The notes: generated from the letters alone by a model not told the origin. DNA of 64,000 bases from Halorubrum salinarum (GCF_013267195.1 NZ_CP053941.1:372001-436000), one strand, 5' to 3'. Counted from the first letter of the stretch, positions 199 through 26,381 are shown. Numbers and translations are program-made.

Positions 199-212
199 TG
201 GACTCGCGGGGA
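199..212 (+). repeat. attL core, 14-bp direct repeat
   Basis: These 14 bases are identical to 26368-26381, the last 14 bases of tRNA-Ala. They lie 53 bases beyond the stop codon of the integrase gene. Identity ends on both sides: the left copy is preceded by GAG and followed by GAGACG, the right copy is preceded by GGA and followed by TTTGAA. A weaker copy differing at the two end bases lies at 112-125. Confidence 0.7.
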
Positions 213-4090: not shown

Positions 4091-5095
4091 TCAGGGCTCG
4101 CTGTATCGGTACCGACGATCGCGAGTCGATCCGGTCGACTCGATCAGCTCGTAGTGCTCCAGCGATTGTAGGTACTTCCGCCGCGTACTCTTCACACGAG
4201 GGTCGGCGACGCGCACCTCGTAGCGCCGGTGTAGTTCCGAGGCGCGGATCTCGCCGGCCTCCTTAATGATCTCGTAGAGGTGCCGCTGGTGCGTCCCGAG
4301 CGTGTCGACGTGGCGCTCGTGAATCTCCTCGCGAGCCTCCTCGCGGACCGGCTGGACGTTGTCGACGGTCAGGGTCTCGTCGCCGTGCTCGACGGCATCC
4401 CGGACTGACCGGCGGAGCAACGTGATTGCGTGGCGGGCGTCGCCGGCGGCGATGTCGGCGATCGTCTCGACGGCCTCCTCGTCGACGACACCCGTCGCGA
4501 GGGCGGCGTCGATCCGGCTCCAGAGGATGTCCACGAGTTCGTCGTGGTGGTACCGTTCTAGGACGACCTTCGTCGCACCGCGGATCCGGGAGGCAACGCG
4601 CGAGTCCAGATCGGCGAAGAAGTCGTCTTCGTCGACGCAAATCAGCACGAGGGTCACGTTCGGGATCTCCCAGAGCGCCTGGATGGTCTGCTCGTCGTCA
4701 AGGACGTCGACCTCATCGACGATGCCGACAAAGTGGTCGTCGAGGTCACGGAGCCGATCGAACATGGTCGACGTCGGCGTGCCCTTCTTCCTGAGGTCAT
4801 TCGCACGACCGGCGTCGCGAACGAGCGAGTAGACGATCGCCGACATCGAGGTTTCCGAGATACAGTTCACGTATCCCCAGCGGATACCGAGGACCTCTTG
4901 GTCCAGCTGCCGGACGATGTAGTTCGCGATCGTCGTCTTACCGGTGCCGCTGGAGCCGGTGATCATCACGGTTTCCGCGCCGAGACCGTGCGCGAGCGGC
5001 TTCAACTGAGCAGAGAGATGCTGGAGGTGCCCCTCTCGGTGGTGAAGTTCCTGAGGGACCCAGTTCTCCTTGAGAACACGGGCGTTTTGGATCAT
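4091..5095 (-). CDS. Orc1/Cdc6-family replication initiator
   Basis: The product is an AAA+ ATPase that loads replication machinery at an origin. The Walker A motif is GSSGTGKT at 47-54 and the Walker B is GIVDEVD at 124-130. Sensor and lid helices follow (SRIRG, about 170; GDARHAITLLRR, about 220). The C-terminal 75 residues look like a winged helix. At 334 residues it is shorter than the usual chromosomal initiators of about 400, as is common for plasmid and virus copies. It suggests the element can replicate as an episome. The adjoining TATCGAA repeats are the nearest candidate binding sites. Confidence 0.9.
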   Translation of the reverse strand: MIQNARVLKENWVPQELHHREGHLQHLSAQLKPLAHGLGAETVMITGSSGTGKTTIANYIVRQLDQEVLGIRWGYVNCISETSMSAIVYSLVRDAGRANDLRKKGTPTSTMFDRLRDLDDHFVGIVDEVDVLDDEQTIQALWEIPNVTLVLICVDEDDFFADLDSRVASRIRGATKVVLERYHHDELVDILWSRIDAALATGVVDEEAVETIADIAAGDARHAITLLRRSVRDAVEHGDETLTVDNVQPVREEAREEIHERHVDTLGTHQRHLYEIIKEAGEIRASELHRRYEVRVADPRVKSTRRKYLQSLEHYELIESTGSTRDRRYRYSEP

Positions 5096-5267: not shown

Positions 5268-5855
5268 ATGAATCTACAGCCCCACGAGGAAGAAGACGGG
5301 AAGAAGGTCTGGCTCTCCGAGGCCGAGGTCGAGAAGCTCGAAGCGGTGGCCGACGACACCGAGCAGACGATCGCGTTCGCGCTCGGCGCGCGGTGCGGGT
5401 TGCGCTCGGCTGAGATCCTCGACGTCAGCCCGCAGGATGTTGTCGAGACCGACGCCGGCTGGGTGGTTCGCGTCTGGGAGGGGAAGGGCGACAAGTTCCG
5501 CGAGACGCCGGCGCCGAGCGACCTCGCGATGCGGATCCAGACGATCGGCGACGTCCGCGACGCGCCGAGTGACGAACCGGTCCTGTCTGTCTCGTCGACG
5601 CGGTCGCTACGGCGCTGGCTCCAGGACGCCCGCGAGCAGCTCGCCGAGCAGGAGGATGACATCGGCTGGCAGTTCCTCAGTACGCACGACCTCCGCCGAA
5701 CGTGGGCCAGCGCGCTCGCGGACGCGGAGGTAGACCCTCTACTCGTTCTCGACTGGGGCGGGTGGGAGGACTTGGAGACCTTCCTCGAACACTACAACGG
5801 GACCTACTCCCCGGCGGCGCAGCGCCGAGCGCGTGAGAAGGTGGACTGGTTGTAG
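5268..5855 (+). CDS. Catalytic-domain-only tyrosine recombinase
   Basis: This 195-residue protein is a second tyrosine recombinase that lacks the usual N-terminal core-binding domain. It shows R46 in CGLRSAEIL, K73 and K76 in GKGDKF, H140-x-x-R143 in STHDLRRTWAS, W166 in place of the second histidine, and Y176 in EHYNGTY. Small haloarchaeal recombinases of this form are common on mobile elements. It might resolve dimers of the circular form or invert a segment. It stands alone between the Orc1/Cdc6 gene, divergent from it, and a 59-residue gene in the same direction. Confidence 0.88.
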   Translation: MNLQPHEEEDGKKVWLSEAEVEKLEAVADDTEQTIAFALGARCGLRSAEILDVSPQDVVETDAGWVVRVWEGKGDKFRETPAPSDLAMRIQTIGDVRDAPSDEPVLSVSSTRSLRRWLQDAREQLAEQEDDIGWQFLSTHDLRRTWASALADAEVDPLLVLDWGGWEDLETFLEHYNGTYSPAAQRRAREKVDWL

Positions 5856-5924
5856 GCCCACGCGTGTGCCTTTGATCCATGTGTACACAATGAAAACTAA
5901 GTGTGTAGTCGGCGATAAACCGAT

Positions 5925-8513: not shown

Positions 8514-9431
8514 TCATGAGGAGTACACCTCGCTAAATCGGTCCGCGTTGACGAGGTCAGAGATCCGTGGCTGGCTAAGCGCCTCGATGTCTCCGTCGGA
8601 GTCGCGCTCGGCGGCGCTGAGGACCTCCCCGATCTCGCTCTGGGTCATCCCGCACTGGTTCATCGCCCGAACGAGGTGGTACCGCGACTTCTTCGAGCAC
8701 TTGTTCCAGTAGTTCTTCTTCAGCTCCTCGACCTCGCGGCGGTGGACGTACTTGTTCTCCGTCCGCTCCTGGTCGCGCTCGACCTTCATCTGGTCCAGCT
8801 TCTGGAACTCGGGATGCCAGTCGAGGATGGGCCACGAGATGGTCTCGACCCGCGTCTTGTAGTTGCTCTCGTAGTGCTCGTTGTTCCGCAGTCGGTAGAC
8901 CTTCGCCTCGCCCTTCGGGCGCCCCTCGGGCGTCTCCTGTGCCTGTATCCAGTAGTCGGCGCTGTCGCCGCCGATCCGGTCGTCGACCCAGCCTTTCGAG
9001 GGCGCCGTCATCATCCCGAACACCTGCCGGTATCGCTTCTCGGCGAACGCCTGACTCAGTTCGACGTTGTCGCTCGACGTCGCTCTGCGGGAGTCGGCCG
9101 CGCGCTGGACCTCGTCGAGCAGCAGCACCGAGCCCGGCGGGACCTCGTCGTACATCACCTCGTACTCTCGGGGAGAGAACGTCGCCTTCTCGCTGTCCCA
9201 CCAGGACATGTCCCAGAGCATCGCGAGGGCGAAAGCCAGCGTCGTCTTTCCGACGCCGGTCTCCGCGGCGGCTGTCACGATGACGTGCATATCCCGGTTC
9301 GACGTGAGCCGGGCGAGGAACTCGTGGAAGAGCTTCGACTCGGTGAACCCGGGGTACTCTGCCCAGATGTCGACTGGCGACTTCACGTCGCCGTCGAAGT
9401 TCTCTACGCCTCGAGATTCTCTTGACGCCAT
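8514..9431 (-). CDS. P-loop ATPase with C-terminal HTH (Zot/assembly-ATPase-like)
   Basis: This 305-residue NTPase has Walker A ETGVGKTT at 57-64 and Walker B SVLLLDEVQ at 101-109, followed by a possible sensor segment (GMMTAPSKGW). A charged coiled region spans about 205-245, and the C-terminal 50 residues contain a helix-turn-helix-like stretch (MTQSEIGEVL ... SQPRISDLV). The overall pattern resembles ATPases used for DNA transfer or virion assembly in small viruses and plasmids, such as the Zot/pI class. It has no VirB4, HerA or terminase nuclease features. It has a good ribosome site (GGAGGTGG, 4 bases before ATG) inside the end of the upstream gene, and lies next to the envelope-protein cluster. 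Confidence 0.7.
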   Translation of the reverse strand: MASRESRGVENFDGDVKSPVDIWAEYPGFTESKLFHEFLARLTSNRDMHVIVTAAAETGVGKTTLAFALAMLWDMSWWDSEKATFSPREYEVMYDEVPPGSVLLLDEVQRAADSRRATSSDNVELSQAFAEKRYRQVFGMMTAPSKGWVDDRIGGDSADYWIQAQETPEGRPKGEAKVYRLRNNEHYESNYKTRVETISWPILDWHPEFQKLDQMKVERDQERTENKYVHRREVEELKKNYWNKCSKKSRYHLVRAMNQCGMTQSEIGEVLSAAERDSDGDIEALSQPRISDLVNADRFSEVYSS

Positions 9432-9898
9432 TGTTCCACCTCCTTCATGAGGTCCTCGTCAATCTCCGTCCGGTGCGTCGACTTCGACGTCGTCGCGGTA
9501 AATCCGAGCTCGTCGGCGATGTCCTCGAGACGTCGGATAACCCGCACGAGTTGCTCGGGATCGACCGCGAGGATGGCGGGCTTCTGGACCGCCCGGCTGT
9601 TCCCGTTCCGGCGCGGCGACGGCTCTTCGACGGTGACGACCTCGTTCTGCTTCTGCTCGATCCAGTGGATGTCTCGCTCCTCCCACGAGGGATCGAGCGA
9701 GTCCTCTTCGCGATACTTGTGAAGCACCTCCCGATAGCCGAGAGCGCGCTCGGCGAGCTCGCGGACCACGTCGTCGGGAACCGGCATCGGACTGAGCTTG
9801 AACCGTCGGTACTCCCGGACGGCGGAGAGGGCGGCCATTTCGTGGTCGTAGATGATCTGCTTCGGCCGCCGATCTCCCTCGTCGGCCTGCTCACTCAT
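9404..9898 (-). CDS. Hypothetical helical protein upstream of the ATPase
   Basis: The 164-residue soluble, charged protein is probably mostly helical and has no recognised family. The start (MSEQADEGD) overlaps the AbrB-like gene's stop by 8 bases, and its end overlaps the ATPase start by 28 bases. This coupling suggests it works with the ATPase, perhaps as an adaptor. The longer frame extends into the upstream gene and was rejected. Confidence 0.65.
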   Translation of the reverse strand: MSEQADEGDRRPKQIIYDHEMAALSAVREYRRFKLSPMPVPDDVVRELAERALGYREVLHKYREEDSLDPSWEERDIHWIEQKQNEVVTVEEPSPRRNGNSRAVQKPAILAVDPEQLVRVIRRLEDIADELGFTATTSKSTHRTEIDEDLMKEVEQWRQENLEA

Positions 9899-10115
9899 CG
9901 TCGAACCCGATCCAGATTCCGTCGGAGTACGTCGCGACACGCAGTTCGTCGCCCTTACTGATGCCGTGGGTGTCCCGAACGTACCCGGTGAGGTTCACGT
10001 ACAGACTCGATCCGAGCTTCTGTACGGTCCGTTCCTGCTCGTTGAGCGGAGAGTCTCCGCCGCCCCCGTCACGCCGGAGCGCTTGGAGGCCGTCAGCCTC
10101 TGGGTCTCGTCCCAT
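9891..10115 (-). CDS. AbrB/SpoVT-like DNA-binding protein
   Basis: The 74-residue protein ends in an AbrB-like swapped-hairpin pattern: RTVQKLGSSLYVNLTGYV followed by GISKGDELRV. This family binds DNA as dimers and often autoregulates. The N-terminal 27 residues are loosely structured. It is the first gene of the ATPase operon and lies directly across a 114-bp intergenic region from the envelope cluster, so control of both directions is plausible. Confidence 0.75.
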   Translation of the reverse strand: MGRDPEADGLQALRRDGGGGDSPLNEQERTVQKLGSSLYVNLTGYVRDTHGISKGDELRVATYSDGIWIGFDDE

Positions 10116-10229
10116 GAGCCGGCGGTTTCGTCTACCCCATTTAAATCTAAACTAATGTTTAAACACCGACTCAAACAGAGATTCATACTTTCCAGTTCGG
10201 TTAACCCAACCGGACAGATAGCGCGATTC
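10116..10229. promoter_or_regulatory. Divergent promoter between ATPase operon and envelope cluster
   Basis: In this short region an AT-rich stretch with ATTTAAATC and TGTTTAAAC (about 10138-10163) can supply TATA elements in both directions. There is a GGTTAACC palindrome at about 10199-10206. The AbrB-like gene starts at its left end, so it may be the operator of that regulator. Confidence 0.5.
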
Positions 10230-10664
10230 ATGGCATCTACAGCCATGAACTCCGGGATGGCGGATCCGCCGGCGTCGCCGGGCAACCCGACGGAGCAGAG
10301 TGTTACTGACCGCGTCGCTGACGCGTCCGAGCAGGTGGCCGACAACCTCGAGGACTACCAGCGAGAGGTGACCTTCCAGGCGGACGTAGCCTCCGATGAG
10401 TTCGTCCGGCGGGCCGGACTCGAACGGCTCGACCAGATGATGTCGGGGATGATCAATGAGATCGTCGGCGGCATCTTCGCGATCGCCCTCGGTCTCGTTC
10501 TCCTGAACCAGCTGTTCCAGGTCAGCATCGTGAACACCAGCGACGGTGCCTTCTCGGGGACTTTCGACACCGTCGAGAGCGTCGGCGGCGCGGCGCTGAC
10601 GTTCGCCGTCCTCGGCATGCTGGCGCTCGCCGGCGGCACCGCCGTCCGAATGTTCCGGACCTAA
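10230..10664 (+). CDS. Small membrane protein, paralogue A
   Basis: The protein has about 144 residues; ATGs at 10245 and 10257 are alternatives. A soluble N-terminal half precedes a helix ERLDQMMSGMINEIVGG and two hydrophobic segments, one reading FAIALGLVLLNQLF and one near the end reading FAVLGMLALAGGTAVRMF. The C-terminal 85 residues are nearly the same as in the next gene, so this is a tandem duplication with diverged N-termini and loop. It is the first gene of a 14-gene cluster and may be a major envelope protein. Confidence 0.75.
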   Translation: MASTAMNSGMADPPASPGNPTEQSVTDRVADASEQVADNLEDYQREVTFQADVASDEFVRRAGLERLDQMMSGMINEIVGGIFAIALGLVLLNQLFQVSIVNTSDGAFSGTFDTVESVGGAALTFAVLGMLALAGGTAVRMFRT

Positions 10665-10666
10665 TC

Positions 10667-11080
10667 ATGTCGGTCCGTTCCGCATCTGCCTCGGTGGCGA
10701 CGACGGCGGTCGAGCAGACTGAAACGACGGCTGTGACGGCGGTCGAGCAGGCCGAAACGACGGCTGCGACGGCCAGCGTTGAGGGCCACAAAGCGGCAGA
10801 GCAAGCGATCGAGGGAACGCGAGTCGAGCGACTCGACCAGATGATGTCGGGGATGATCAACGAGATCGTCGGCGGCATCTTCGCGATCGCCCTCGGCCTC
10901 GTCCTCCTGAACCAGCTGTTCAGCATCGGGATCATCGAGACGGAGAACGGCTCGTACACCGGGCCGTTCGGTAACGTCTTCGGCACGATTGAATCGGTCG
11001 GCGGCGCAGCGCTGACGTTCGCTGTCCTCGGCATGCTGGCGCTCGCCGGAGGAACGGCAGTTCGAATGTTCCGGACCTAG
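10667..11080 (+). CDS. Small membrane protein, paralogue B
   Basis: This 137-residue paralogue of the preceding gene shares the helix DQMMSGMINEIVGG, both membrane segments and the C-terminal MFRT. The N-terminal 50 residues differ and form a repetitive threonine/alanine/glutamate helix (VEQTETTAVTAVEQAETT). The exposed loop between the membrane segments also differs. The start lies two bases after the upstream stop. Two copies with diverged loops suggest partner subunits of one assembly. Confidence 0.75.
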   Translation: MSVRSASASVATTAVEQTETTAVTAVEQAETTAATASVEGHKAAEQAIEGTRVERLDQMMSGMINEIVGGIFAIALGLVLLNQLFSIGIIETENGSYTGPFGNVFGTIESVGGAALTFAVLGMLALAGGTAVRMFRT

Positions 11081-11160
11081 CGGTCCGGCAGTCGCTTCTT
11101 TCCACACATGCGCGCTCAGAGGCCACAACTACAATTCGAGAATCGACCGAGGTGGTGGCC

Positions 11161-11637
11161 GTGAGCGACCGCGCCGCCGCTTCGACCATCTCCCTGCTGG
11201 CGCTCGCCGTGATGCTGGTGCTGTTCGTCCCGGCGCTGTCCGCGTCGATGGGCTCGACCGCCCAGTCCGACGCGGGCGAGCTCGCGGCGAACGTCACCGG
11301 TGAGAGCATCACCATCGACTACGACGAGCCCCAGTCGGTCGCGGAGCGCGGGGACGCGTACAGCGAGACGGTCACAGTCCGGGACGCGAACGGGACGCGC
11401 CTCGAGGCCGGCACCGACTACCGCTGGAACGACCGCACGGGCGAGCTCGAATGGCTCGCCAGTGACGAGACGATCGAGGGCGAGAGCGGGGAGATCGACT
11501 ACCGCGCGCTCGACGCGCCGGCGCAGTCGGAGACGAGCCAAGAGTTCCTCGTCCCGTTCACGACCGCGCTCCCGTGGTTGCTGCTGTTCGTCGCGGGGCT
11601 TCTCGGGCTCAAGCTGGCCGACGAGGGGTGGTCCTGA
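11161..11637 (+). CDS. Membrane-anchored surface protein
   Basis: The 158-residue protein has an N-terminal hydrophobic segment (about 8-29) that may be a signal anchor. A strand-rich exterior domain of about 90 residues (with N-glycosylation sequons NVT and NGT) follows, and then a second membrane segment near the end (about 133-150). I chose the GTG at 11161 because GAGGTGG lies just upstream; GTG codons at 11152 and 11155 are alternatives. The stop overlaps the next start as TGATG. No family is recognised. Confidence 0.7.
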   Translation: MSDRAAASTISLLALAVMLVLFVPALSASMGSTAQSDAGELAANVTGESITIDYDEPQSVAERGDAYSETVTVRDANGTRLEAGTDYRWNDRTGELEWLASDETIEGESGEIDYRALDAPAQSETSQEFLVPFTTALPWLLLFVAGLLGLKLADEGWS

Positions 11638-11957
11638 TGTGGGTCGCCTTCTGGCTGGCGCTGGCGCTGTTCGCGAGCGGAGCGACGTACTCGTACGCGA
11701 TCGGCGCGCCGAAGCGTCGCGTCTACCTGACGACCGCGTCGGCCTCGGCCGCGTGGGGGATCCTCGCGATCACGGCGCCCGCGGTGTTCACGCTGACCGA
11801 GACCGGCGAGACGGTCCCGGTCGGCGCGCCGCTCGAACTCCAGCTCTTCGTCACGGGGATGGCGGTGTTCAGCCTGCTCGTCCTCGTGCTCTACTACCTC
11901 GGTCTCTACCCCCCGGAATCGAACGCGAACGACCCGACTGAACCAGACAGATCATGA
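11637..11957 (+). CDS. Three-pass membrane protein
   Basis: The 106-residue protein has hydrophobic segments at about 2-20, 32-52 and 66-87 and a short polar tail. It starts at the ATG overlapping the upstream stop, and its own stop overlaps the next start. The role is unknown; it is part of the envelope cluster. Confidence 0.7.
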   Translation: MWVAFWLALALFASGATYSYAIGAPKRRVYLTTASASAAWGILAITAPAVFTLTETGETVPVGAPLELQLFVTGMAVFSLLVLVLYYLGLYPPESNANDPTEPDRS

Positions 11958-12535
11958 GTCAGAAACAGATGGAACGACCGGACCTCGACGACCGGACAGC
12001 ATCGGCAGTCAAACAGGAAGGCGAGCGAGTCGGCATCCAGCAACAGCAGTCCGAGGTTGCCCAGCGGAAGTTCAACCCGGGCTTCTACGCCGAGATCGCG
12101 GACCCAGACACGGACACCTCAGTCTGGGACTGGATCCAGGCGGAAGTCGGACCGGTTCTCGCGAAGCCGCAGATCCTCGGCGACCGCGAGCGCTCGTTCG
12201 TCGAGAAGAGCGAGCTGCTTGACGCGAACAAAGCGGAGCGGATCATCGCCGAGAGCGAACCCGGCCGACTCCTGAAGAAGAACCCGGAGCTTCACGCCTT
12301 CTGGCAGGGCGTCGCGGGGACCGACGCCGAGGGGTACAACGCGCCGATCGAACACCACGACGAGAAGCGCGTCATCAGGGATGCCTTGGAGCTGGCGACG
12401 ACGCGGAAGAGCCTCTCGGTCAACGGCCGCGGGCTCGACGCGCTCACCAAGGCGACGACGGAGACGAACGTCCGGAAGGACAGCGAACAGGAGAAGAAGA
12501 GCATGCGCGAGCGGCTTACGGGGGTGACCCGATAG
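11954..12535 (+). CDS. Soluble hypothetical protein of the envelope cluster
   Basis: The 193-residue charged protein has no membrane segments. It contains long predicted helices (about 55-110 and 130-190). Being the soluble product amid membrane proteins, it may act on the inner face of the assembly or bind DNA. The start overlaps the upstream stop as ATGA and its stop abuts the next start. No family is recognised. Confidence 0.7.
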   Translation: MSQKQMERPDLDDRTASAVKQEGERVGIQQQQSEVAQRKFNPGFYAEIADPDTDTSVWDWIQAEVGPVLAKPQILGDRERSFVEKSELLDANKAERIIAESEPGRLLKKNPELHAFWQGVAGTDAEGYNAPIEHHDEKRVIRDALELATTRKSLSVNGRGLDALTKATTETNVRKDSEQEKKSMRERLTGVTR

Positions 12536-13657
12536 ATGACCGACGACTTCGACGACGACCTCATCGACGACGACATCCTGGACGAATCGGACGACGAACG
12601 AGAAGTGCGGAGTGCCGACCCCGACGACTCGGGCGGCTTCGACGCCACCGAGAGCGCGACATCCGCCCGCGACAGCATCGCGGAAAGCGCCTCGACGGCG
12701 CGCGATGGGATCTCCGACGCACGAGAGGCCCTTGAACCGAGGGCGAGAGCAGCCGGCGAGCGTGTCGGAGAACTCTCCGGACGCGCACTCGGGGCGTCTA
12801 TCGCGTTCCTCGTTTCGATGGCGTCGGCGCTGGTGTACACTGTGACGAAGTTCTTGCCGTTTATCGGTGAGAAGTTCTGGAAGAGCGCGATTGAGACCTG
12901 CGTCGTCCGCTACCAGAAGGCGGCGGGCGCGGACGTCGTGAACTTCGTGTTTCGTGAGCAGGGGAAGGTTGAGCCCGTCGCGACGAAGTGGCACGAGGGC
13001 GAGGACACCGGAGAGAAGCCGGGGTGGAAGGCCGTCGGTGAAGAGAAGGTGTGGGACCCCGGCGCCGAGGGTCGCGGTGTCGAGCGGCTCGGAAAGGCCG
13101 ACGTGATATTCAGCGACGAGGCCGCGTGGCACACCGCGGACCCGCTGAAGATGCGCGTCTCCGAGGCGCTCGACCTCGAGAACGTCGAGCCGCTGGTGAC
13201 GAACGCGACGCTCCAGCAGAACATCATCTCGGCCAACACCAACGGAGACGGGAAGGCCGCGATGGCTGACGGCGGCGCGCAGGCCGGTCCGATCACGCTC
13301 GACCCGCACCAGCACCAGGCGTTCGACGATTTCGCCATCGACCTGTCTCCCGACAATCCGGCCGCGGACGGGATGCGCATCTCCGGACGGAAGTACAAGG
13401 AGATGGACCTGACGAAGACCTCCGCCGAGGAGATGAAGAACCAGGAGACCCGGGGCTTCCTCGCGGGACGTGCCGGGACGGACAACAAGTCGCTGCTGCT
13501 GAAGATCGTCCTCGCGGCGTTCGGCTTCGTTCTCCTGTGGGAATTCGGTCCGAACATCCTTGCCGCGATCTTCGGCGAGAGCGCGGCCAACCTGAGCGGC
13601 GGCGCGAACATCCCGCTGATGCTCGACGCGACGACGACGCTGATGGGGGTGGCCTGA
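12536..13657 (+). CDS. Membrane protein with central soluble domain
   Basis: The 373-residue protein has a very acidic N-terminus (about 1-35) and an alanine/serine-rich amphipathic helix (36-80). A membrane segment follows at about 85-110, then a soluble domain of about 200 residues, then a second membrane segment at about 322-348 near the C-terminus. The soluble domain includes a cysteine near 122 and the stretch ITLDPHQHQAFDDF. With two anchors it could form a loop on the outside or a matrix-like layer inside. No family is recognised. Confidence 0.7.
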   Translation: MTDDFDDDLIDDDILDESDDEREVRSADPDDSGGFDATESATSARDSIAESASTARDGISDAREALEPRARAAGERVGELSGRALGASIAFLVSMASALVYTVTKFLPFIGEKFWKSAIETCVVRYQKAAGADVVNFVFREQGKVEPVATKWHEGEDTGEKPGWKAVGEEKVWDPGAEGRGVERLGKADVIFSDEAAWHTADPLKMRVSEALDLENVEPLVTNATLQQNIISANTNGDGKAAMADGGAQAGPITLDPHQHQAFDDFAIDLSPDNPAADGMRISGRKYKEMDLTKTSAEEMKNQETRGFLAGRAGTDNKSLLLKIVLAAFGFVLLWEFGPNILAAIFGESAANLSGGANIPLMLDATTTLMGVA

Positions 13658-13695
13658 TGATCGCGTCCGCTGACCGAGACAGAGGTGGGTAGCCC

Positions 13696-13941
13696 GTGTA
13701 CGGCTACTACTTCAAGGGAGCCCTACTCATCGGCGTCGCGGTCCTGCTCGCGCTGTTCGTCGAGCCGATCATCGGCGAGCAGGCGGCGATCATGGCGATG
13801 GCACCGGGCGGCGAGGAGACAGCCGTCTACCGGTACGCCACGGCGGTCGGGGACAGCCTGCTCCTGTTCCTCCTGCTCGGTGTAGTCGCTCTCATACTCG
13901 CCGCGGCGCTCGTCGAGCGCGAGCTCGGCGGAGGTGTATGA
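13696..13941 (+). CDS. Small two-pass membrane protein
   Basis: The 81-residue protein has hydrophobic segments at about 7-26 and 53-73. It starts at GTG with GAGGTGG about 7 bases upstream. A frame of 11 codons (13657-13692) lies between it and the previous gene and is probably not real. The stop overlaps the next gene's start. Confidence 0.65.
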   Translation: MYGYYFKGALLIGVAVLLALFVEPIIGEQAAIMAMAPGGEETAVYRYATAVGDSLLLFLLLGVVALILAAALVERELGGGV

Positions 13942-14201
13942 TGAGCCAGATCCGCCGGATGGTGTTCTCCATCGAGGGCGTCATCACCGCCGGCTTCGCG
14001 GCGATCATGTGGGTCTGGGCGCAGCCTTACCTCGGCGACATCGTGAACCAGTTCGAGGGCCCGTTCAGTTCGACGTGGGACACGCTGAACCTCGTCGTCC
14101 CGGTCACGATCGGCGCGTACTACATCATCTACATCGGGTACGTGATCTGGGGTCCCGTCGAGCAGGAACGCGCCCGCCAGACGGCACGGAGGGGACCATG
14201 A
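13941..14201 (+). CDS. Small two-pass membrane protein
   Basis: The 86-residue protein has hydrophobic segments at about 10-29 and 48-70 and a basic tail. Two adjacent ATG codons exist; the second is better spaced from GGAGGT at 13930-13935. The extramembrane loop has QFEGPFSSTWDTLN, similar in feel to the loops of the paralogous pair at the start of the cluster, though not clearly homologous. Confidence 0.65.
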   Translation: MSQIRRMVFSIEGVITAGFAAIMWVWAQPYLGDIVNQFEGPFSSTWDTLNLVVPVTIGAYYIIYIGYVIWGPVEQERARQTARRGP

Positions 14202-14299
14202 CGCCGGAAGACCTGGAGCGTCTCCGAGATCGTGAGCTTCGCGACGCTCACGAGGACGCGAAGAACACCGTCGCGGCTCGAGCGGAGGTCGGAGACTAA
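14198..14299 (+). CDS. 33-residue charged miniprotein
   Basis: The frame starts at an ATG overlapping the upstream stop and ends with TAATG overlapping the start of the spike candidate. The product is a highly charged single helix (DLERLRDRELRDAHED). The double overlap suggests it is translated, either as a real small protein or as a coupling device for the next gene. It is too short to assign. Confidence 0.5.
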   Translation: MTPEDLERLRDRELRDAHEDAKNTVAARAEVGD

Positions 14300-16209
14300 T
14301 GCGAACAATCAACCGCAGGCTACTCATCGGACTTGTTCTATTAGCTATTTTTTCTGGAGCAGTATCTGGTGTGACTGTCGTTCTCTCTGAGACGGCACAA
14401 ACACCAGCTCATGATTCGTCATCTGGTTCGCTAAACGAGGGTGAAAGGGGTGTTCAGATCGGTCTGTCTGATTACCCGCCGAACACGCAACAAGTTAGCC
14501 TAACGGTCACACTATCAGACGATGTTAACGGCTACGGACCGATTGACACAGCCACGACAGTATATCTCAGGCACTACAACGGAACGCTTGTCGACACTGA
14601 GCCGATTGATAGTCAAAAGAATATCACATTCAACGGCGACTATCCAGAAGGAAAGTATCTGGTGACGGTTGATGACCCAAACAACGGTCACCAGTGGACG
14701 CGGTATTTGAGCCCTAATCTCCCATATACGTCTGAAAATGGCCGTGTCAGAATAAATGCCTCAGTTGTCAATGGGGATATTTACGATGGTGAGCCGTATA
14801 ACGTGAGGAAGGTAACGGTTGAGATCACATCAGATGTAAATAAACCAACGCTGAGTGATCCTCAACCGACTGGCGGTCGTTTAATAGAAAATTCGCCTGT
14901 CGAATTGAGCATCGACATCAGCGACCCCGACTTCGGCACGTCGGAGGGTGACGAACTTACGGTCACGTTCTACGACGAGTCTGACGGCTCAGAACTCGGC
15001 ACGCAGACAATAACGCAGAACCAGACGGTCAACGAGACGTTCGACAACCCGGTCTCAGGAACGAACGAGTGGAGCGTCCGGGTCGAGGACAGCTACGGAA
15101 ACGTCGTCGAGAGCGAGACGTTCAGCTTCCAGACGCCCGAGGTCTTGGAGCTGCGGAACGAGAGCGCGCCGAACACCCTCGTGACCGAGGAATCCGACAT
15201 CGAGGTTAGGTTCTTCGGTCGGGAGTCCGGCGAGGTGATCACCCGAACGGCCACGAACGGGACGGTCGACATGACCGGTCTCCCAGTCGACGAGCCGCTT
15301 ATCGCGTCGACCGATGTCGACGGCTACTTCCAGCGGTCGATCGCGATCGACTCTATCCTCGAGCAGCAGCGGATGTTCCTGCTACCTGAGTCGGCAGACG
15401 CCTCACAGGTCGACTGGGTCCTCGACGACAACAGCGGCCGGTTCGATCCAGGTGAGACCACGCTGTTCATCGAGCGTCCGATCGAGATCGACGGGACGAC
15501 CAAGTACCGGGTCATCTACGGCGAGCAGTTCGGTGGGACCGGCCGGACCGCGTCGACGCTCGCGACCGGTGACCGGTACCGCCTCCGTGTCGAGAACCAG
15601 GACGGGAACACCCGGCTGTTGGGGTCTTACCTCGCAGCCGGCGCGGCACAGGAGACGCTGACTGTGGGCTCCGTCGACTTCCCCGGCCTCGACGACACCG
15701 GGACCGCCTTCTCCGCGGTGCTCAACGACGAGGACGGAGTCATCGACTACCGATTCGCCGACGACTCCGCAGAGACGGACGAGCTTACAGTCGAGATCTA
15801 CAAGAACGGTGAACTCGTCCGCAACTCGACGCTCTCGGGACCGGTCCAGACGGTCCGCGAACAGGTGCCGCTGTCCGATCTGAACCACTCGGAGGGTGAC
15901 TCATACCGTATCGAGTACTCGGCCGACCGAAACGGGATCGTAATCGACGGCGAGCGGATCGTCGGCGATGTCCCCGAACTCGCGGACGACTGGAACATCG
16001 ACGCCGGCCTGCTCAACATCCTTGGGATGATCACCATCGTCGCCTCGTTCGGTGGCGTGGTCATCTTGTCACCGCGTCACGCCGGCATCGTCGCCTTCTC
16101 GGTCGCGTTCGCGCTCTCGATCATCGGTGTCGTCGCGATCAACCAAGTCCTCATCGGGCTGGGATTCGTGGCCAGCGGCCTCTTCGCCGCAGCCGGAGGG
16201 AATCCATGA
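14299..16209 (+). CDS. Spike-like surface protein with Ig-like domains
   Basis: The 636-residue protein has an N-terminal signal/anchor (about 7-29) and a long strand-rich exterior region with many N-glycosylation sequons. At least one Ig-like repeat is recognisable (about 185-280, with TLSDPQPTGG ... SVRVEDSYGNVV). The C-terminal 65 residues form about three membrane segments. Bases 14299 to about 14900 (residues 1-200) are visibly AT-rich and use A/T-ending codons, while the rest is GC-rich like the neighbours. This suggests replacement of the outer domain. It is the best candidate for receptor binding or membrane fusion. It starts at the TAATG overlap. Confidence 0.75.
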   Translation: MRTINRRLLIGLVLLAIFSGAVSGVTVVLSETAQTPAHDSSSGSLNEGERGVQIGLSDYPPNTQQVSLTVTLSDDVNGYGPIDTATTVYLRHYNGTLVDTEPIDSQKNITFNGDYPEGKYLVTVDDPNNGHQWTRYLSPNLPYTSENGRVRINASVVNGDIYDGEPYNVRKVTVEITSDVNKPTLSDPQPTGGRLIENSPVELSIDISDPDFGTSEGDELTVTFYDESDGSELGTQTITQNQTVNETFDNPVSGTNEWSVRVEDSYGNVVESETFSFQTPEVLELRNESAPNTLVTEESDIEVRFFGRESGEVITRTATNGTVDMTGLPVDEPLIASTDVDGYFQRSIAIDSILEQQRMFLLPESADASQVDWVLDDNSGRFDPGETTLFIERPIEIDGTTKYRVIYGEQFGGTGRTASTLATGDRYRLRVENQDGNTRLLGSYLAAGAAQETLTVGSVDFPGLDDTGTAFSAVLNDEDGVIDYRFADDSAETDELTVEIYKNGELVRNSTLSGPVQTVREQVPLSDLNHSEGDSYRIEYSADRNGIVIDGERIVGDVPELADDWNIDAGLLNILGMITIVASFGGVVILSPRHAGIVAFSVAFALSIIGVVAINQVLIGLGFVASGLFAAAGGNP

Positions 16210-16601
16210 GGACAGCGTGGGCGGTGCTGCTCGTCTTCGCGTTCGCGACGGGCGTGCTCATCTTTCAGCTGTCTGGCGTCGGCGCGATCTTCGGTGTCGG
16301 CAGTCCGACCGCCGACCTCAGCTCCGGCGACCGCTTCGCCGAGGAGGCCGACGACAACATCCTCGAGGAAGGAGACGACGAATCGTTCAACCCCGACGCA
16401 CGCGGGAGCGACAACCTCGTCGGCTTCATCATCAGCGGCTTCTCCATCGTCTTCGGCTACGTCAGGCTCGTGGTGTTGCTCCCGATCGAGATACAGAACC
16501 TCGGTGCGCCGCGTTGGGCGGCATACCCGCTTGGACTGTTCCTTCAGACCGTCGTGATCTTCGGAGCCGCGCAGTTCGGCTCCGGGAGGATCTGGTCATG
16601 A
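16206..16601 (+). CDS. Membrane protein after the spike candidate
   Basis: The 131-residue protein has an N-terminal hydrophobic segment (about 4-25), an acidic exterior stretch (about 30-70) and two further hydrophobic segments (about 71-93 and 105-124). Its start overlaps the spike stop as ATGA and its stop overlaps the next start. A role in anchoring or completing the spike is suggested by position only. Confidence 0.7.
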   Translation: MRTAWAVLLVFAFATGVLIFQLSGVGAIFGVGSPTADLSSGDRFAEEADDNILEEGDDESFNPDARGSDNLVGFIISGFSIVFGYVRLVVLLPIEIQNLGAPRWAAYPLGLFLQTVVIFGAAQFGSGRIWS

Positions 16602-16948
16602 TCGGGAGCGTCCTGTCGGTCGGCGCGACCGACCTCGGCTGCTACACGTCCGGCTCGAGTCCGGCCGAGGCCGACCTCCTCTCGTGTCTGATCGGCGACG
16701 CCGGCGCCGCGTTCGGGACCATGGAGATGTTCGCGATGGTCGTCGCGTTCGGGCTGCTCATCAGCCTCTACATCGCGAGCGACTTCGAGCCAGCCGCCCC
16801 GACGCTCGGGACCATCCTCGTCGGCTCGATGCTGATCCCGGCGCTCCCCGGACAGTTCAGTCGCATCGGGCTCGTGATCATGCTGGTCGGCGTCGTGGCC
16901 GGGATCTTCGCCTTCGGCCAGCGCTACATCCTGGAGGTGGGTACATGA
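16598..16948 (+). CDS. Multi-pass membrane protein
   Basis: The 116-residue protein has hydrophobic segments at about 43-62, 69-85 and 90-109 and two cysteines near the N-terminus (about 15 and 30) that could form an exterior disulfide. The ATG overlaps the upstream stop. The longer frame upstream is a shadow. No family is recognised. Confidence 0.65.
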   Translation: MIGSVLSVGATDLGCYTSGSSPAEADLLSCLIGDAGAAFGTMEMFAMVVAFGLLISLYIASDFEPAAPTLGTILVGSMLIPALPGQFSRIGLVIMLVGVVAGIFAFGQRYILEVGT

Positions 16949-17319
16949 GGCCCGCCTTCCGGATGATCGGCCAGATCCTCACGATGCCGATCGGCATCGC
17001 CCACGAGGGCGTTCACTCGTTCGCCGCCGCGCTGGTCGGCCTCGACGCGCAGATCGTCGTGAAGCCGAACGGCTCGACGTGCCACGTCGACTTCGAGCCG
17101 GCGAGCGCGGCACAGCAGGCGCTCGTCGCGCTCGCGCCGACGCTGACGGCGTTGCTCCTCGCCGGGCCCATGTGGGCCGCCTTCGGCGACGGACGCGCCG
17201 TGACGGCGCTCGTGGTCACGAGCGCGCTGCTGCTCTTCGGAGCGCCGTCGCGGGCCGACCTGAGTACAGCTCTGAGACCGTTCCACTCGACAAAAACAGA
17301 CCATGCCACGAGGAACTAA
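16945..17319 (+). CDS. Membrane protein with HEGVH motif (site-2-protease-like)
   Basis: The 124-residue protein carries HEGVH at about residues 20-24 inside a hydrophobic segment (IGIAHEGVHSFAAAL), matching the HExxH zinc-protease signature as placed in membrane-embedded M50-type proteases. A second hydrophobic region (about 62-80, LAPTLTALLLAGPMW) and a third (about 87-100) follow. It is much shorter than classical M50 enzymes and lacks an obvious third ligand motif, so it may be a minimal or inactive form. It overlaps the next gene by 17 bases. It could process envelope proteins of this cluster. Confidence 0.6.
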   Translation: MRPAFRMIGQILTMPIGIAHEGVHSFAAALVGLDAQIVVKPNGSTCHVDFEPASAAQQALVALAPTLTALLLAGPMWAAFGDGRAVTALVVTSALLLFGAPSRADLSTALRPFHSTKTDHATRN

Positions 17320-19954
17320 CAGCAACGACGGTGCGGAGATGAACCGAGCGCAGAGACGACAGCAGGCGACCGAGCGGCGCCAGCAGACCGCCCAGAGCCT
17401 CGGAACCGACCCGGGCGAGGTACGCGTCCAACAGCGGCGAAACCGGAACACGGTCGCACTCAGCGGCGAGGGCGAACAGGATGTCCGGCAGGCACAGACC
17501 GCGGACTCGGAGTACATCCGACCCGACGACCTCAACGTCGAGGACAGCGGCCCCGGTATCGAGGTCGGCGTCGCCGAGACCGCGCGGCAGGACATCGCCT
17601 CGCGGGTCAAGCAGGACGTCGCCGGGCAGAGTCGCTTCGCGCGTCCCGGTGACGTCGCCGTCGAAGTGACCGAAGCCGGCGTCGAGAAGGTCGACGTCGA
17701 CCAAGCCGCGATCCGCTCGCGGCGGCGCGCATTCGAGCAGCGTCAGGCGCGCCGCGAGGCCGCGAGCGAGCTCTCCGACGAACTCGGCCGGGACGTCGAC
17801 CCGTCCGACATCGAGATCTCGGACGGGCAGGCGACGCTCGCCGACGACGCGGCCCAGGAGGTCATCGACCAGCAGCGAAGCGACCTCCGCTCAGACGCGG
17901 CCGAGGAGTTCGACGTCGACCCGTCGCAGGTCGAGATCTCCAAGCAAGACGGCGAACTGGTCGCGCAGGCCGACGTCGAGCGACAGTTCGAGCAGCAGTT
18001 CAAGGGCGACCCCGCCCGCGGCATCCCCGGCGTGAACGTCGCCCGCGAGGCCGCGCGGAGACAGGTGGCCGACGAGCTGGGCGTCGAGGCCGAGGACGTT
18101 GAACTGAGCCGGCAGGACGGGCAGGTGATCGCCGAGGCCGACGTTCCGCGCGACACTCTCCCGTCGGACAGTACCTCAGTCGGGGCCGGTCTGGGAGGAA
18201 ACGTAGACACGACTTCCTTCAACCTCCCGTCTCGGAGTGGTTCGGGAACAGCATCGACTGACACTTCGACATCGCCGGGCGCGCTCGCGACCGTGACGGG
18301 CACGGCGGCGAGCACGCTCGCGAACAACCCGGTCGGGAACGCGATCGGAAGGGGTGCGGACGCGCTGTTCGGAACTGACTCGCCGGATAGTGGTGTTCTC
18401 GGTGGTGTAGCGGACCGGTTGGATACCGAGGCCGAGGACATCAATAACACATTCGCAGACCAGATCCGCGAGAGCGATCCGAGCCGTACCCAAGCGGTAG
18501 CACCAGGAGTCGGCGGCTTGTCCGCAGCGGCGAATAGCGAGTTCATCCGGGGTAGTGCCGCGACCGCGACGGAGTTGGCGAATCCGGCTGCCGCCGGACG
18601 CGATCTAATAAACCTCGGCAGTGCTGGCGCCCAGGTGGCGGACTTCGTCGCTGATGAGGGCCCTGAAGGCGCTCAGGTAGTTCTCGACGCCGCTGAGGCT
18701 GGTGCGCGCGCCGCGCCCGGAGCGGTTGTCGACGTGGCTCAGGCGGCCCGAGACAATCCGCAAGAAGCTGCGGAGGTCGGAACCGCAGTCGTCGCCACGG
18801 GCGTCGCCGGTGGAGCAGGCTTCCGAGGTGTTCGTGGCGCCGCGTCGGGAGCGCGTCAGCTGACACGACGACTCGACGCCGATCTCGCGGAGTTCCGTCG
18901 GGCCAACCGCGCCCAGGGGCAGATCGGAAGCCAGCGTTCCCGGGATACTGTCGACTTCTCGGACGCGCAGAGCGGTCGCGACTTCGAAGCCGACCTGCGA
19001 CAGGAAGACCTCACCCAACGCCAGGAGATACTCCGTGACCAAGCGACTCGAGAGCAACGTGTCACGGAAGACCTCGTCGACAACCCGCGAAGCGCGGACC
19101 CGATCGGGACGGGCGGACGCGGGCCGACGATCGATCCGGATCGACCGCCGCGGGCCGGGCCGTCTCGACCGACGACACGGACGCAGAGCGTCGGGCAGAA
19201 CGTTCCGCGGGAGATGGCCGGTCTACAGCGTGCGAACAACGTCCCGACGGCAGACCTCCGGACCACGGTGGATGTCACGCCAACCGCTACGTCGACGTCG
19301 GGAGCCGCTCGCGGTGCCGCGGCGGCGACGGGAGCAAGCGGCTCTCGAGCTCCCAGCCAGCTCGTCGACGCAGACGGTAGCGTAATCGAGCCCGCCTCGG
19401 GCCTCGACATCACGACGCCGCGGCCAGCGACCGAAACAGGCACGACGACGGCCACGACGACGCTCGCGGACCAGGTCACCGGAACGCAGGCCGCAACGAC
19501 CACAGGAACCGCTACAGCGTCCGCGGACGCGTTCCTGAACCAAGGTCTCGGGACTGCGACGGGAACGCGATCGAGTGCCGTTCCGAGCGGTGTTGGTCTC
19601 GGTACGCGCCCAGGCGTGAGAACAGGTCTCCGCCCCGGCCAGCGTGTCGGCACCCGGACCGGGACGGGGCCGCGCCAGACGCCGAGATCGGCAGCGCCCT
19701 CGGCATCGCGTGCCAGTTCGGCCAGCACAGCCGGATCAACCGCAACTACTGCGAGTGAGCGAATAGCGAGAGCATTACCAGGAGGGGTTGGAAGTAGAGG
19801 CCGAGGGCGCCGAGGCCTACCAGAGTTTTCGGCTGATGGCGAATCTGAAGAAGGGGAAGTCCCGGAAAACTTCATTGAGAGTACCTTCGACAATCCGATT
19901 GCCTCCGTAACCGAGGTAGAAAGAGAACTGGAGGAATTCTTTGAAAGAGGTTAG
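17303..19954 (+). CDS. Large repeat-containing protein ending the envelope cluster
   Basis: The 883-residue protein has no clear signal peptide. It contains about four copies of a motif with the pattern (sLG/ELG/EFD)-V-D-P-S-x-[IV]-E-[IV]-S-x-[QG] at roughly 24-60, 145-186, 190-227 and 247-283. Alanine/glycine-rich hydrophobic stretches (about 325-350 and 430-530) follow. The tail of about 650-840 is disordered and rich in threonine, arginine and serine, and the end is acidic. An internal or membrane-associated scaffold is plausible. The last roughly 200 bases become AT-richer. The start at 17303 has no strong ribosome site; ATG 17339 is an alternative. Confidence 0.7.
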   Translation: MPRGTNSNDGAEMNRAQRRQQATERRQQTAQSLGTDPGEVRVQQRRNRNTVALSGEGEQDVRQAQTADSEYIRPDDLNVEDSGPGIEVGVAETARQDIASRVKQDVAGQSRFARPGDVAVEVTEAGVEKVDVDQAAIRSRRRAFEQRQARREAASELSDELGRDVDPSDIEISDGQATLADDAAQEVIDQQRSDLRSDAAEEFDVDPSQVEISKQDGELVAQADVERQFEQQFKGDPARGIPGVNVAREAARRQVADELGVEAEDVELSRQDGQVIAEADVPRDTLPSDSTSVGAGLGGNVDTTSFNLPSRSGSGTASTDTSTSPGALATVTGTAASTLANNPVGNAIGRGADALFGTDSPDSGVLGGVADRLDTEAEDINNTFADQIRESDPSRTQAVAPGVGGLSAAANSEFIRGSAATATELANPAAAGRDLINLGSAGAQVADFVADEGPEGAQVVLDAAEAGARAAPGAVVDVAQAARDNPQEAAEVGTAVVATGVAGGAGFRGVRGAASGARQLTRRLDADLAEFRRANRAQGQIGSQRSRDTVDFSDAQSGRDFEADLRQEDLTQRQEILRDQATREQRVTEDLVDNPRSADPIGTGGRGPTIDPDRPPRAGPSRPTTRTQSVGQNVPREMAGLQRANNVPTADLRTTVDVTPTATSTSGAARGAAAATGASGSRAPSQLVDADGSVIEPASGLDITTPRPATETGTTTATTTLADQVTGTQAATTTGTATASADAFLNQGLGTATGTRSSAVPSGVGLGTRPGVRTGLRPGQRVGTRTGTGPRQTPRSAAPSASRASSASTAGSTATTASERIARALPGGVGSRGRGRRGLPEFSADGESEEGEVPENFIESTFDNPIASVTEVERELEEFFERG

Positions 19955-20004: not shown

Positions 20005-20583
20005 ATGGGGTTGAAAGGTTTTCTTGTGCGCTCAATCAAAGGGACTATTCTCTTTTATCTCGTCCTGGGATTGATCGGTTTGGTGATCGTCGGTGGAATC
20101 GCTGTCTTGGAATCTGGAACTGGTTACGATTTTGGACCCGAACCGATCTCTGAAGAGGAAGTTGAAGATGAAATGGTTCAAAGGATCAACTCGGAGCGTT
20201 CAAAACAGTATTTAAACAACCTTACTGAACTCCAAGCGGCTGATGAGTTGGCAAGTAGGCATACCGAGGTAATGAATGAATCTGGAGAAATTTCTAACAT
20301 CGCCGGTAACTGGAGCATCGGAAATAGCCTCGGGTCAATTGGTTGCGAGCCCGGTGGTGAAACTGTAGCAAAATCATACGTGTTTGAGTCTGTTGAGTTG
20401 GAGAATGAGACGATATACGTCGAGGACGCATCTGAGACCGCGGAGATGTTGGTGAAGATCTGGATGAATTCAGAACCGAATAGAGATATGATAATGAATC
20501 CACGTTGGGGTGGTGTTGGAGTTGGCGTCACAATCAATGAAGATGATGAGGTCTACGCATCGTTGATTGTCTGCGGTGTTTGA
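20005..20583 (+). CDS. Membrane-anchored CAP/SCP-domain protein
   Basis: The 192-residue protein has one N-terminal membrane segment (about 13-36). The exterior domain fits the CAP (cysteine-rich secretory/PR-1) family: INSER and a leucine-rich stretch (about 55-75), LASRHTEVM with a histidine near 85, a central HxN-like region that is weak, and WMNSEPNRDMIMNPRW (about 151-166) followed by glycine/valine strands ending in LIVCG. The gene is AT-rich unlike its neighbours, suggesting separate acquisition. Its own promoter, with ATAGATATACAATC, lies at about 19972-19985. The role on the element is unknown; CAP domains in other systems bind lipids or act outside the cell. Confidence 0.75.
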   Translation: MGLKGFLVRSIKGTILFYLVLGLIGLVIVGGIAVLESGTGYDFGPEPISEEEVEDEMVQRINSERSKQYLNNLTELQAADELASRHTEVMNESGEISNIAGNWSIGNSLGSIGCEPGGETVAKSYVFESVELENETIYVEDASETAEMLVKIWMNSEPNRDMIMNPRWGGVGVGVTINEDDEVYASLIVCGV

Positions 20584-20890: not shown

Positions 20891-22783
20891 TCAGCGGGGG
20901 AGCTTCGACGAGAAGAGAACGTCCCCGTTGCGGTTTATCGGGCGCTGACCCGTCCGACGTCCCTTCTCCTTCTCCGTCCAGGAGAACTCACCGCTGATGA
21001 ACTTCCGGTACGCCATCGAGCCCGTGTCCTCCGCGGCGTCAACGCCTGCGCGGATGAGCTTCACGAGCTCGACACGCGAAAGCGGCTGGCCGCCGAGATC
21101 GACGACCATCCCATCGACGGACTCGGTGATTGAGATGCCGTGGCGCCGAGCCCAGCGTGCGAGCGCGGAGTCCTGGTCGATCATCTCCGTCTCCGCCGAC
21201 GCGAGCTGGCGCACACCACCGACTACCCAGTCCGTGACGTCCTCGAAGGTGTTCAGCAGGTCCTGGAACTTCTCGCGGATCAGGCTGTCCTCGAACGACA
21301 TCTTCGCGTTCGCGACCTCGACGAGGTCGTCGAACTTCTCGGCGGCGCGGTAAACAGTTGAGCGAGACGTGTCCGACAGCTCGGCGAGCTCGTCGACGCC
21401 GGCGCCGTCGCCGCCGTCGGTCAGCGCGGCCAGCACGGAGCGCTCAGACTCGGTCGCATCGCCGCGAGCGAAGTGCGCGACCGCCTGCTGCTCTTCACCC
21501 TCCCGGACGCTAGGCATCTTGTTGTCCACGAGGTCGAGATCTCGCTCTGACTCGGTCGCCTCGAAGTAGTGATCCGCCGTGTAGACGCGGGGGTCGGCGC
21601 GCGTCGGGAGTCCTGCCCAGAGGAGGACGTTCACGAGCGACTCGTCGAGCTCCGTCCGGAGCGCCTCAACGTCGAACGCGCCCTCCTCGCTCCAGGGCAC
21701 CGAGGCTCGGTCGGAGTAGTCCTTCGACCACTGAAGCTCGAGCTTCGGATCCGAGAGCGGGTCGTCGGCCGACGACGTCTCCTCGGACCTAGCGAACTCC
21801 GGGTGGTAGTACTTCACCAGCTTCCCGACGCCGTTCGGCTTCTCCGTGAGCTTCTTCCAGGTCGACTCATCGAGCGCGACGGCGTTCCGGTGGCCGACGA
21901 CCTTCTCGTTGTCCCACTTGTACTCGCCCTTCCCACGGTTGTTCGAACCGAAGAGCGCGAGCTGGTCGAGGACGGCGCCCTGCCCGGCGACGTGCTGCTC
22001 GCCGGCGCCGCGGTCCAGGCGGAGGTACATCTCCATCTGGTAGGCGTTCGAGTGCTCGTGAACGCACTCCTCGCGGAAGTAGTGGGTGCTGATGTCGAGC
22101 TCCTCCGCGAGTCGACGAAGCAGCGGGATCACCTCGTCCGGCTCTAAGTTGCTGGAGTTCGCCTGAACACGCAGCCCGTACGGAAGATCCTCCGGCATCG
22201 ACCCGATCCGTTCGCCGTCAGCCGTTCGCGCGTCCGGCAGCGACGGCCGGAACTGAAACGACGCCTTCCGCTCACCGAGACCGTCCTGCGCCCGGACGGC
22301 GATCTGGTACTCGTTGAACGTTTCGTAAGGTCGCATCGGCGCAGCGATGCCGCCGGACCAGTACTTTGTCTTGTCCGGGTTGATCTCCCAGAGCTCGTCG
22401 CCGAAGACGAACGACCCGACGTCGTCGGCGATGCTGGGTTCGTACTGGGAGACGATCGCGTCGTACGGCGACAACGAGCCGGGGTGACCGTTCTGACTCG
22501 TCTCGGGCTGCGAGAACAGGAGGTGAGCGCCAAACGCGTGAACACGCGGCTCGACGCATTCGATCGGCCCCTCGACGTCGAACGTCCGGTACTCGGTCGC
22601 CTCCGGGCTGCTGGGATGGACCTGCCGAGTCCCTTCGCTAGCGGCGTCGCGAAGCTCGCGCGCCTCGTCAGAATCGACGACGCCCTCGATCGAATCCTCG
22701 TCCTCACCGGTGACGGGCTCGGCATCGCCCAGCAGCTCGTCGAGGTCGCCCTGCGGCCCGGGTTCGAGGTAGTCGTCGCTCAA
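20891..22783 (-). CDS. 630-residue element protein with C-terminal winged helix
   Basis: The start is the TTG at 22783, which follows GGAGGTG and overlaps the upstream stop as TTGA; the longer frame upstream is an arginine-rich shadow of two other genes. The protein has an acidic N-terminus (1-60), a large mixed domain (about 60-420), and a MarR/HTH-like segment around 460-510 (GDATESERSVLAALTD ... DTSRSTVYRAAEKFDDL). A helical C-terminal region follows. Similar large proteins recur on haloarchaeal plasmids and proviruses without a known function. DNA binding, perhaps in replication or partition, is likely from the HTH. It ends the operon. Confidence 0.7.
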   Translation of the reverse strand: MSDDYLEPGPQGDLDELLGDAEPVTGEDEDSIEGVVDSDEARELRDAASEGTRQVHPSSPEATEYRTFDVEGPIECVEPRVHAFGAHLLFSQPETSQNGHPGSLSPYDAIVSQYEPSIADDVGSFVFGDELWEINPDKTKYWSGGIAAPMRPYETFNEYQIAVRAQDGLGERKASFQFRPSLPDARTADGERIGSMPEDLPYGLRVQANSSNLEPDEVIPLLRRLAEELDISTHYFREECVHEHSNAYQMEMYLRLDRGAGEQHVAGQGAVLDQLALFGSNNRGKGEYKWDNEKVVGHRNAVALDESTWKKLTEKPNGVGKLVKYYHPEFARSEETSSADDPLSDPKLELQWSKDYSDRASVPWSEEGAFDVEALRTELDESLVNVLLWAGLPTRADPRVYTADHYFEATESERDLDLVDNKMPSVREGEEQQAVAHFARGDATESERSVLAALTDGGDGAGVDELAELSDTSRSTVYRAAEKFDDLVEVANAKMSFEDSLIREKFQDLLNTFEDVTDWVVGGVRQLASAETEMIDQDSALARWARRHGISITESVDGMVVDLGGQPLSRVELVKLIRAGVDAAEDTGSMAYRKFISGEFSWTEKEKGRRTGQRPINRNGDVLFSSKLPR

Positions 22784-26367: not shown

Positions 26368-26381
26368 TGGACTCGCGGGGA
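26368..26381 (+). repeat. attR core, 14-bp direct repeat inside tRNA-Ala
   Basis: These 14 bases are identical to 199-212. In the tRNA they are the discriminator base, the 3' half of the acceptor stem and the 3' half of the T-stem. Recombination here leaves the tRNA intact at the right end. Confidence 0.7.

Follow-up and report, generated by a model that had tools for sequence, protein, structure and literature searches.

A cluster of membrane protein genes and a diverging ATPase operon

We analyzed a 64,000-nucleotide stretch of DNA from Halorubrum salinarum (NZ_CP053941.1, 372001–436000), hereafter the window, in whose positions all coordinates are given. Between 10230 and 19954 lie fourteen tightly packed, mostly overlapping plus-strand open reading frames (ORFs; A to N), which tile 98.9% of this interval and are the subject of this study. 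A first-pass annotation had read them as a candidate undescribed envelope or vesicle-forming module beginning at 10116. The ORF lists contain the fourteen genes and the cluster itself stands, but A most likely starts at ATG 10230 and not at 10116. GC by codon position is of the coding type for most of the ORFs. Ten of the fourteen products have two or more predicted transmembrane (TM) segments, in agreement with the roughly ten small membrane proteins first annotated, and the spike-like Ig protein, the HExxH membrane protein and the 883-residue protein of that annotation correspond to J, M and N, respectively.

A P-loop ATPase operon diverges from the cluster on the minus strand, as also annotated. 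The ATPase gene (8514–9431) is the third, after a gene for a small AbrB-like regulator (9891–10115) and a gene for a conserved 178-residue protein (9404–9940). Tailed-virus, VirB4 and relaxase proteins gave no match among the proteins scanned, consistent with the first reading. A chromosomal transporter is ruled out, with no transporter family match and with strong viral homology. Sequence searches of the PDB returned nothing useful.

Integration into a tRNA-Ala gene

The cluster is only the structural part of a 26,169-bp insertion unit, which extends from 199 to 26381 and lies in the 3′ end of tRNA-Ala(GGC) (26368–26439, minus strand), the sole tRNA gene in the window. The left attachment core (attL, TGGACTCGCGGGGA, 199–212, plus strand) is an exact repeat of the tRNA 3′ end and adjoins the integrase gene int1. 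The right core (attR, 26368–26381, plus strand) lies within the tRNA gene, of which the 14-bp core forms the 3′-terminal 14 bp. An empty site was found in four genus relatives (G119, G146, G154 and G114), where the match to 113–212 is contiguous with the match to 26368 onwards. The two flanks overlap there by 14 bp, with a few nucleotides of extra identity in some relatives. The shared core and the contiguous flanks therefore define the unit of 26,169 bp. A rearrangement in a further relative, G126, in which the host DNA further left is located elsewhere, was dropped; the 100 bp adjoining attL fixed the site.

In G114 (L081), the tRNA-Ala site is otherwise empty, but some 700 bp away from it is a stretch 87% identical to window 5592–5858 (the second recombinase gene, int2), which suggests an earlier visit of a related element.

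Relationship to virus LSV-48N and plasmid PL23

The nearest characterized relative is Haloferax virus LSV-48N (PP151251), which has matches to the AbrB-like protein, the ATPase, C, E, F, J, K, L, N, Cdc6, Int1, Int2 and Rep of the element. Its particles are lemon-shaped by transmission electron microscopy, measuring 65–90 × 35–50 nm, and they vanish on curing of the provirus; 13 of its proteins were found in the supernatant, and the virus has circular and integrated forms and is shed continuously with no lysis (PMC12714723). It was described (EMBO Rep 2025) as a new Haloferax family without sequence relation to known haloviruses (PMC12714723). Like the element, LSV-48N combines a diverging ATPase operon with a structural operon and has an integrated form. 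The two differ in that identity is about 25–45%, in their accessory genes and in the distal domain of the spike. Furthermore, N lies between F and G in LSV-48N but last in the element, and LSV-48N has one A gene, the A/B homologue CDS20, where the element has two (A and B). At the level of genes, the element shares the ordered LSV-48N-type structural genes together with a DUF7845 Rep, integrases and Cdc6. Thus the module is of a kind already known, contrary to its first description as undescribed, and most of the cluster is homologous to structural genes of this virus family, an outcome that the first-pass annotation had itself named as refuting its reading.

The second close relative is the Natronomonas pharaonis plasmid PL23 (NC_007428), the sole match of F among plasmids. 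PL23 is collinear across the AbrB-like gene, the 178-residue protein, the ATPase, A, B, D, E, F, G, H, J, K, L, M and N, and shares with the element the tandem A/B pair, the integrase type and the Rep. Unlike the element it is a circular replicon, carries extra genes for 105-, 228- and 467-residue proteins and has no match to C or Cdc6. PL23 has been called a plasmid and is reported to carry a gene resembling PAV1 ORF528 and to have a copy integrated in the chromosome (PMC3543421, PMC3119063); a description of it as a virus was not found in the open-licence literature searched.

These homologies cover most of the structural cluster. C (11152–11637), with a TM-ectodomain-TM layout, matches LSV-48N CDS19 (E = 8e-10); the small multi-TM protein D (11637–11957) matches PL23 (4e-6); and E (11954–12535), a soluble protein of 193 residues, matches PL23 (5e-13) and CDS17 (2e-5). 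F (12536–13657; 373 residues, two TM segments) matches PL23 (3e-34) and CDS16 (2e-7). The two-TM proteins G (13696–13941) and H (13938–14201) match PL23 at 3e-7 and 2e-4, H also matching Halobellus (8e-11), and I (14198–14299) is an uncertain ORF of 33 residues, called from the sequence only. Two proteins of the spike unit follow J: the membrane protein K (16206–16601; PL23, 1e-18; CDS11, 5e-11) and the multi-TM protein L (16598–16948; PL23, 1e-16; CDS10, 4e-4). M (16945–17319) is a membrane protein with the motif HEGVH and an M50-like, putative processing protease; its match to Peptidase_M50B (PF13398, 9e-4) is below the cut-off, and the motif HE[GL][VT]H is also present in PL23 and in LSV-48N CDS08. 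N (17303–19954), of 883 residues and low complexity, is a putative internal or scaffold protein (PL23, 6e-5; CDS15, 7e-4). In the diverging operon, the regulator, labeled AbrB-like by eye and with no Pfam match, is 42% identical to its PL23 counterpart (1e-16) and matches CDS21 (5e-6), while the 178-residue protein matches PL23 (3e-10) and belongs to a family whose matches adjoin the ATPase.

The genes for integration and replication are related in the same way. The tyrosine integrase Int1 (266–1291, minus strand; PF00589, 3e-11) is 39% identical to the PL23 integrase and 40% to CDS30, and the second, short tyrosine recombinase Int2 (5268–5855, plus strand) is 38.5% identical to the integrase CDS25 (9e-30). 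The Cdc6/Orc1-like AAA+ protein (4091–5095, minus strand; PF22703, PF13401) is 45% identical to CDS06 (2e-104). Rep (20891–22750, minus strand, start codon approximate) is a DUF7845 (Rep-Arvir) rolling-circle initiator (PF25227, 3e-90; PL23, 35%, 1e-86; CDS26, 3e-25). Work of 2026 characterized this family as initiators of rolling-circle replication in viruses and plasmids of archaea, the lemon-shaped LSV-48N and PAV1 among them (PMC13107129).

Comparison with the classic spindle viruses

The element was compared with BLv25 (OQ850971, Halorubrum), His1 (AF191796) and SSV1 (X07234); profile E-values against these refer to a small reference set. The ATPase, putatively for genome packaging, is of the spindle-virus type. 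It is 79% identical to a Halobellus copy and matches PL23 (2e-23), and in direct comparison is 35% identical to BLv25 ORF1 (6e-31) and matches His1 ORF16 (1e-12). The family profile detects BLv25 at 2e-53, His1 at 1e-29 and SSV1 B251 at 4e-6, so that the element has the B251/ORF16-type ATPase, a spindle-virus trait. The C family profile matches BLv25 ORF3 (5e-7), and the best profile reference for D, a weak one, is His1 ORF24/BLv25 ORF4.

BLv25 and His1 present the ATPase, a major capsid protein (MCP) slot, C, a D slot and a spike in the same order as the element. Topology agrees slot by slot: a two-TM hairpin, a TM-ectodomain-TM protein, a small multi-TM protein, and a spike that carries a signal sequence and has three helices at its C-terminus. 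In comparisons of hidden Markov models (HMM-HMM), the positional counterpart ranked first for A/B, C, D, J and the ATPase, with SSV C792 first and His1 ORF27 second for J. However, BLv25 and His1 are smaller, at 13–14 kb, with no detectable E, F, G, H, L, M or N. In place of Rep, His1 has a family B DNA polymerase of its own, and the Halspiviridae, to which it belongs, have a linear genome, whereas the element is integrated in a tRNA gene. His1 ORF12 gave no blastp match among the listed proteins of the element. SSV1 shares the B251-type ATPase, the C792 end protein, duplicated two-TM coat genes (VP1/VP3) and a circular DNA with an integrase, but its host is of a different phylum and by profile only the ATPase and the spike C-terminus are detectable.

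The first-pass annotation had suggested a pleomorphic virus or a plasmid spreading in membrane vesicles, such as pR1SE. On this view the membrane proteins would make a lipid vesicle that carries the DNA and lacks an ordered coat. The many small membrane proteins, the single anchored spike and the naming of PL23 as a plasmid would fit, and pR1SE/apHPV is likewise haloarchaeal and non-conjugative with many membrane proteins. The pR1SE core, though, includes an S8 protease beside a large protein and a VirB4/HerA-like ORF25 (PMC10818511). Compared by this description, neither the S8 protease (ORF7) nor ORF25 was matched in Pfam by any of the scanned proteins of the element, and the pleolipovirus spike and internal membrane protein had no Pfam or PHROG match among them. 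Moreover, the relatives of known particle shape, LSV-48N by electron microscopy (PMC12714723), His1 and SSV1, are spindle-shaped. We therefore consider a vesicle very unlikely; of the initial interpretation, the particle module of a mobile element, with its membrane-anchored spike and diverging ATPase, is retained.

Candidate capsid proteins

A (10230–10664; PL23, 1e-6) and B (10667–11080; PL23 counterpart, 1e-6) are candidate major capsid proteins 1 and 2. A is a two-TM hairpin with an N-terminal extension and B its tandem duplicate, with DNA identity of 80–85% over 158 and 101 nt. Slot, topology and duplication are as in His1, BLv25 and SSV1. The pair sits directly before C, and the C homologue BLv25 ORF3 directly follows a gene annotated as MCP, itself a homologue of His1 VP21 (1e-11). 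When the full ORF sets of BLv25 (109) and His1 (116) were ranked with an A/B profile, the MCP headed both lists. Position, topology and neighbor homology, rather than sequence significance, thus support A/B as occupants of the slot that the MCP holds in known spindle viruses.

Alternatively, the coat of a spindle-virus-like module could be formed by a different small membrane protein, namely G, H, D or C. The sequence support for A/B is weak by itself, and no known capsid protein was recognized in LSV-48N by its authors (PMC12714723). Against this stand the place of A/B before C, mirrored at the annotated MCP of BLv25, the hairpin with its duplication as in VP1/VP3, and the first rank of the MCPs by profile. 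A different coat protein is in our view unlikely, though the least unlikely of the alternatives.

The spike and its distal region

J (14299–16209, 636 residues), a spike or tail-tip adhesin, matches the 904-residue LSV-48N CDS12 (3e-50) and PL23 (4e-61). By TM prediction and AlphaFold2 (AF2), it consists of a signal sequence, β domains arranged in a chain and three helices at the C-terminus. Its C-terminal profile matches BLv25 ORF8 (5e-6) and SSV1 C792 (1e-3). The first 200 codons (14299–14898) are of foreign composition, with a GC content of 0.47, and 0.44 at third codon positions, against 0.63 and 0.85 for the rest, and the edge is sharp, near 14890. The conserved part starts at about residue 180–280, and the C-terminal half with its three TM helices is conserved. 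From the composition edge and the start of conservation, the distal third of J looks to have been swapped by recombination, which fits replacement of a receptor-binding head.

A host surface-protein gene at 34883–38149 (minus strand), with a PGF-CTERM-like C-terminus by eye, has a similar pattern, its N-terminal part (36300–38100) being low in GC (about 0.40) and its C-terminal part GC-rich. The gene may encode a virus receptor, or an S-layer protein, that is diversifying.

A probable provirus of the lemon-shaped virus type

The element ends, the empty site, the open integrase genes, the rolling-circle Rep, the spindle-virus ATPase and a structural gene order common to the element, many other loci and a lemon-shaped virus that has been imaged lead us to conclude that the cluster is very probably the virion module of a provirus (199–26381) that is complete, apparently intact and of the LSV-48N type of lemon-shaped haloarchaeal viruses.

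Several observations weigh against this reading or parts of it. The spike gene is present in the assembly only as a single integrated copy. HMM-HMM scores are weak or moderate except for the ATPase, and no counterpart of N or M was identified in His1 or SSV1. Foldseek with J returned only generic Ig-like or β-sandwich chains. The AF2 model of A is of low confidence (predicted local distance difference test score of 49), too poor for a fold search. Finally, layout-preserving shuffles of the MCP equaled the real A/B score in 73 of 2000 cases for BLv25 and 729 of 2000 for His1; shuffles so often matching these weak scores, sequence alone is no proof of capsid identity.

Distribution and accessory genes

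The same cluster is found in Halobellus, Haloferax mucosum and Halogeometricum limi. A J profile matched 35 of 391 haloarchaeal genomes, covering 25 of 86 genera and seven families. Twenty regions were fetched, several of which (N. pharaonis, Natrinema, Halobaculum and Halomicrobium) had also come up in other searches. In at least 16 of the 20, J lies in a structural operon that keeps the gene order, in most cases accompanied by the diverging ATPase operon, and an A-like gene is present in 15. The arrangement is more than chance, since the same genes occur in essentially the same order in these other loci, and the gene-order conservation that the first-pass annotation proposed as a check is thus present in other haloarchaea. 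F as a tblastn query gave no phage match, and scans of IMG/VR with F and J gave none.

Two IMG/VR contigs (3300019926_000104 and 3300017815_000001; 58 and 45 kb) encode the ATPase and A-like two-TM proteins, with no J in the part examined, and are perhaps larger relatives with another spike. A contig of a metagenome-assembled genome labeled 'Mollicutes' (PULR01000054) carries a haloarchaeal-type J (37%, 3e-54) and is therefore probably mis-binned. The 75.8-kb plasmid NZ_CP084093 of Halomicrobium urmianum repeats identical genes, among them a J homologue, an integrase and neighbors, about 14,077 bp apart, so that the record may represent a 14-kb element resembling a spindle virus that is concatenated or was wrongly assembled.

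The accessory gene O (20005–20583, plus strand) encodes a CAP-domain membrane protein (PF00188, 3e-6), present in the Halobellus contig too. It is low in GC (0.46) within the provirus and is a possible superinfection or surface-modifying gene. PADLOC found no defense gene among eight accessory proteins, and genes assigned by eye as winged helix-turn-helix-like lie in the non-structural part.

Accessory genes such as the CAP protein, together with the one genome copy, would suit a domesticated or decayed provirus islet, which no longer makes particles and whose membrane proteins serve the host. All core genes are open, however, and the att cores are intact. In addition, two genomes have J both on the main contig and on a smaller, separate one; one of the two is N. 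pharaonis, which thus has the module both in the chromosome and as a separate replicon. An islet is improbable on this evidence.

Proposed particle cycle and significance

Starting from the genes, homology and att sites, we propose a cycle modeled on LSV-48N, His1 and SSV1. Int1 would recombine the 14-bp core to release an excised circle, and would also integrate it; Rep would replicate the circle by the rolling-circle mechanism. The hydrophobic two-helix hairpins of A/B would assemble at the cell membrane into a lemon-shaped coat, to which C, D, F, G and H would contribute as minor membrane components. SSV1 VP1 undergoes processing, and M may, speculatively, trim the N-terminal extensions of A/B in a similar manner. 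The ATPase would load DNA into the particle, while J on a K–L base would form the pole that binds the host. Release would proceed without lysis, as reported for LSV-48N, and the apparent exchange of the distal third of J by recombination would presumably alter receptor specificity.

In several hypersaline waters no particle type is more abundant than the lemon-shaped one, yet isolates of such haloviruses are very few. We judge the chances evenly balanced that A/B are the unrecognized MCPs of a class-wide temperate lemon-shaped family linking LSV-48N, PL23, BLv25/His1 and SSV-type viruses, and that this family accounts for some of those abundant, mostly uncultivated brine particles. The family spans seven haloarchaeal families, beyond Haloferax, with links to His1/BLv25 at the level of the ATPase and C. 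Our comparison suggests that a number of plasmids, PL23 among them, are virus genomes, and it names in A/B a testable capsid candidate for the LSV-48N-type viruses.

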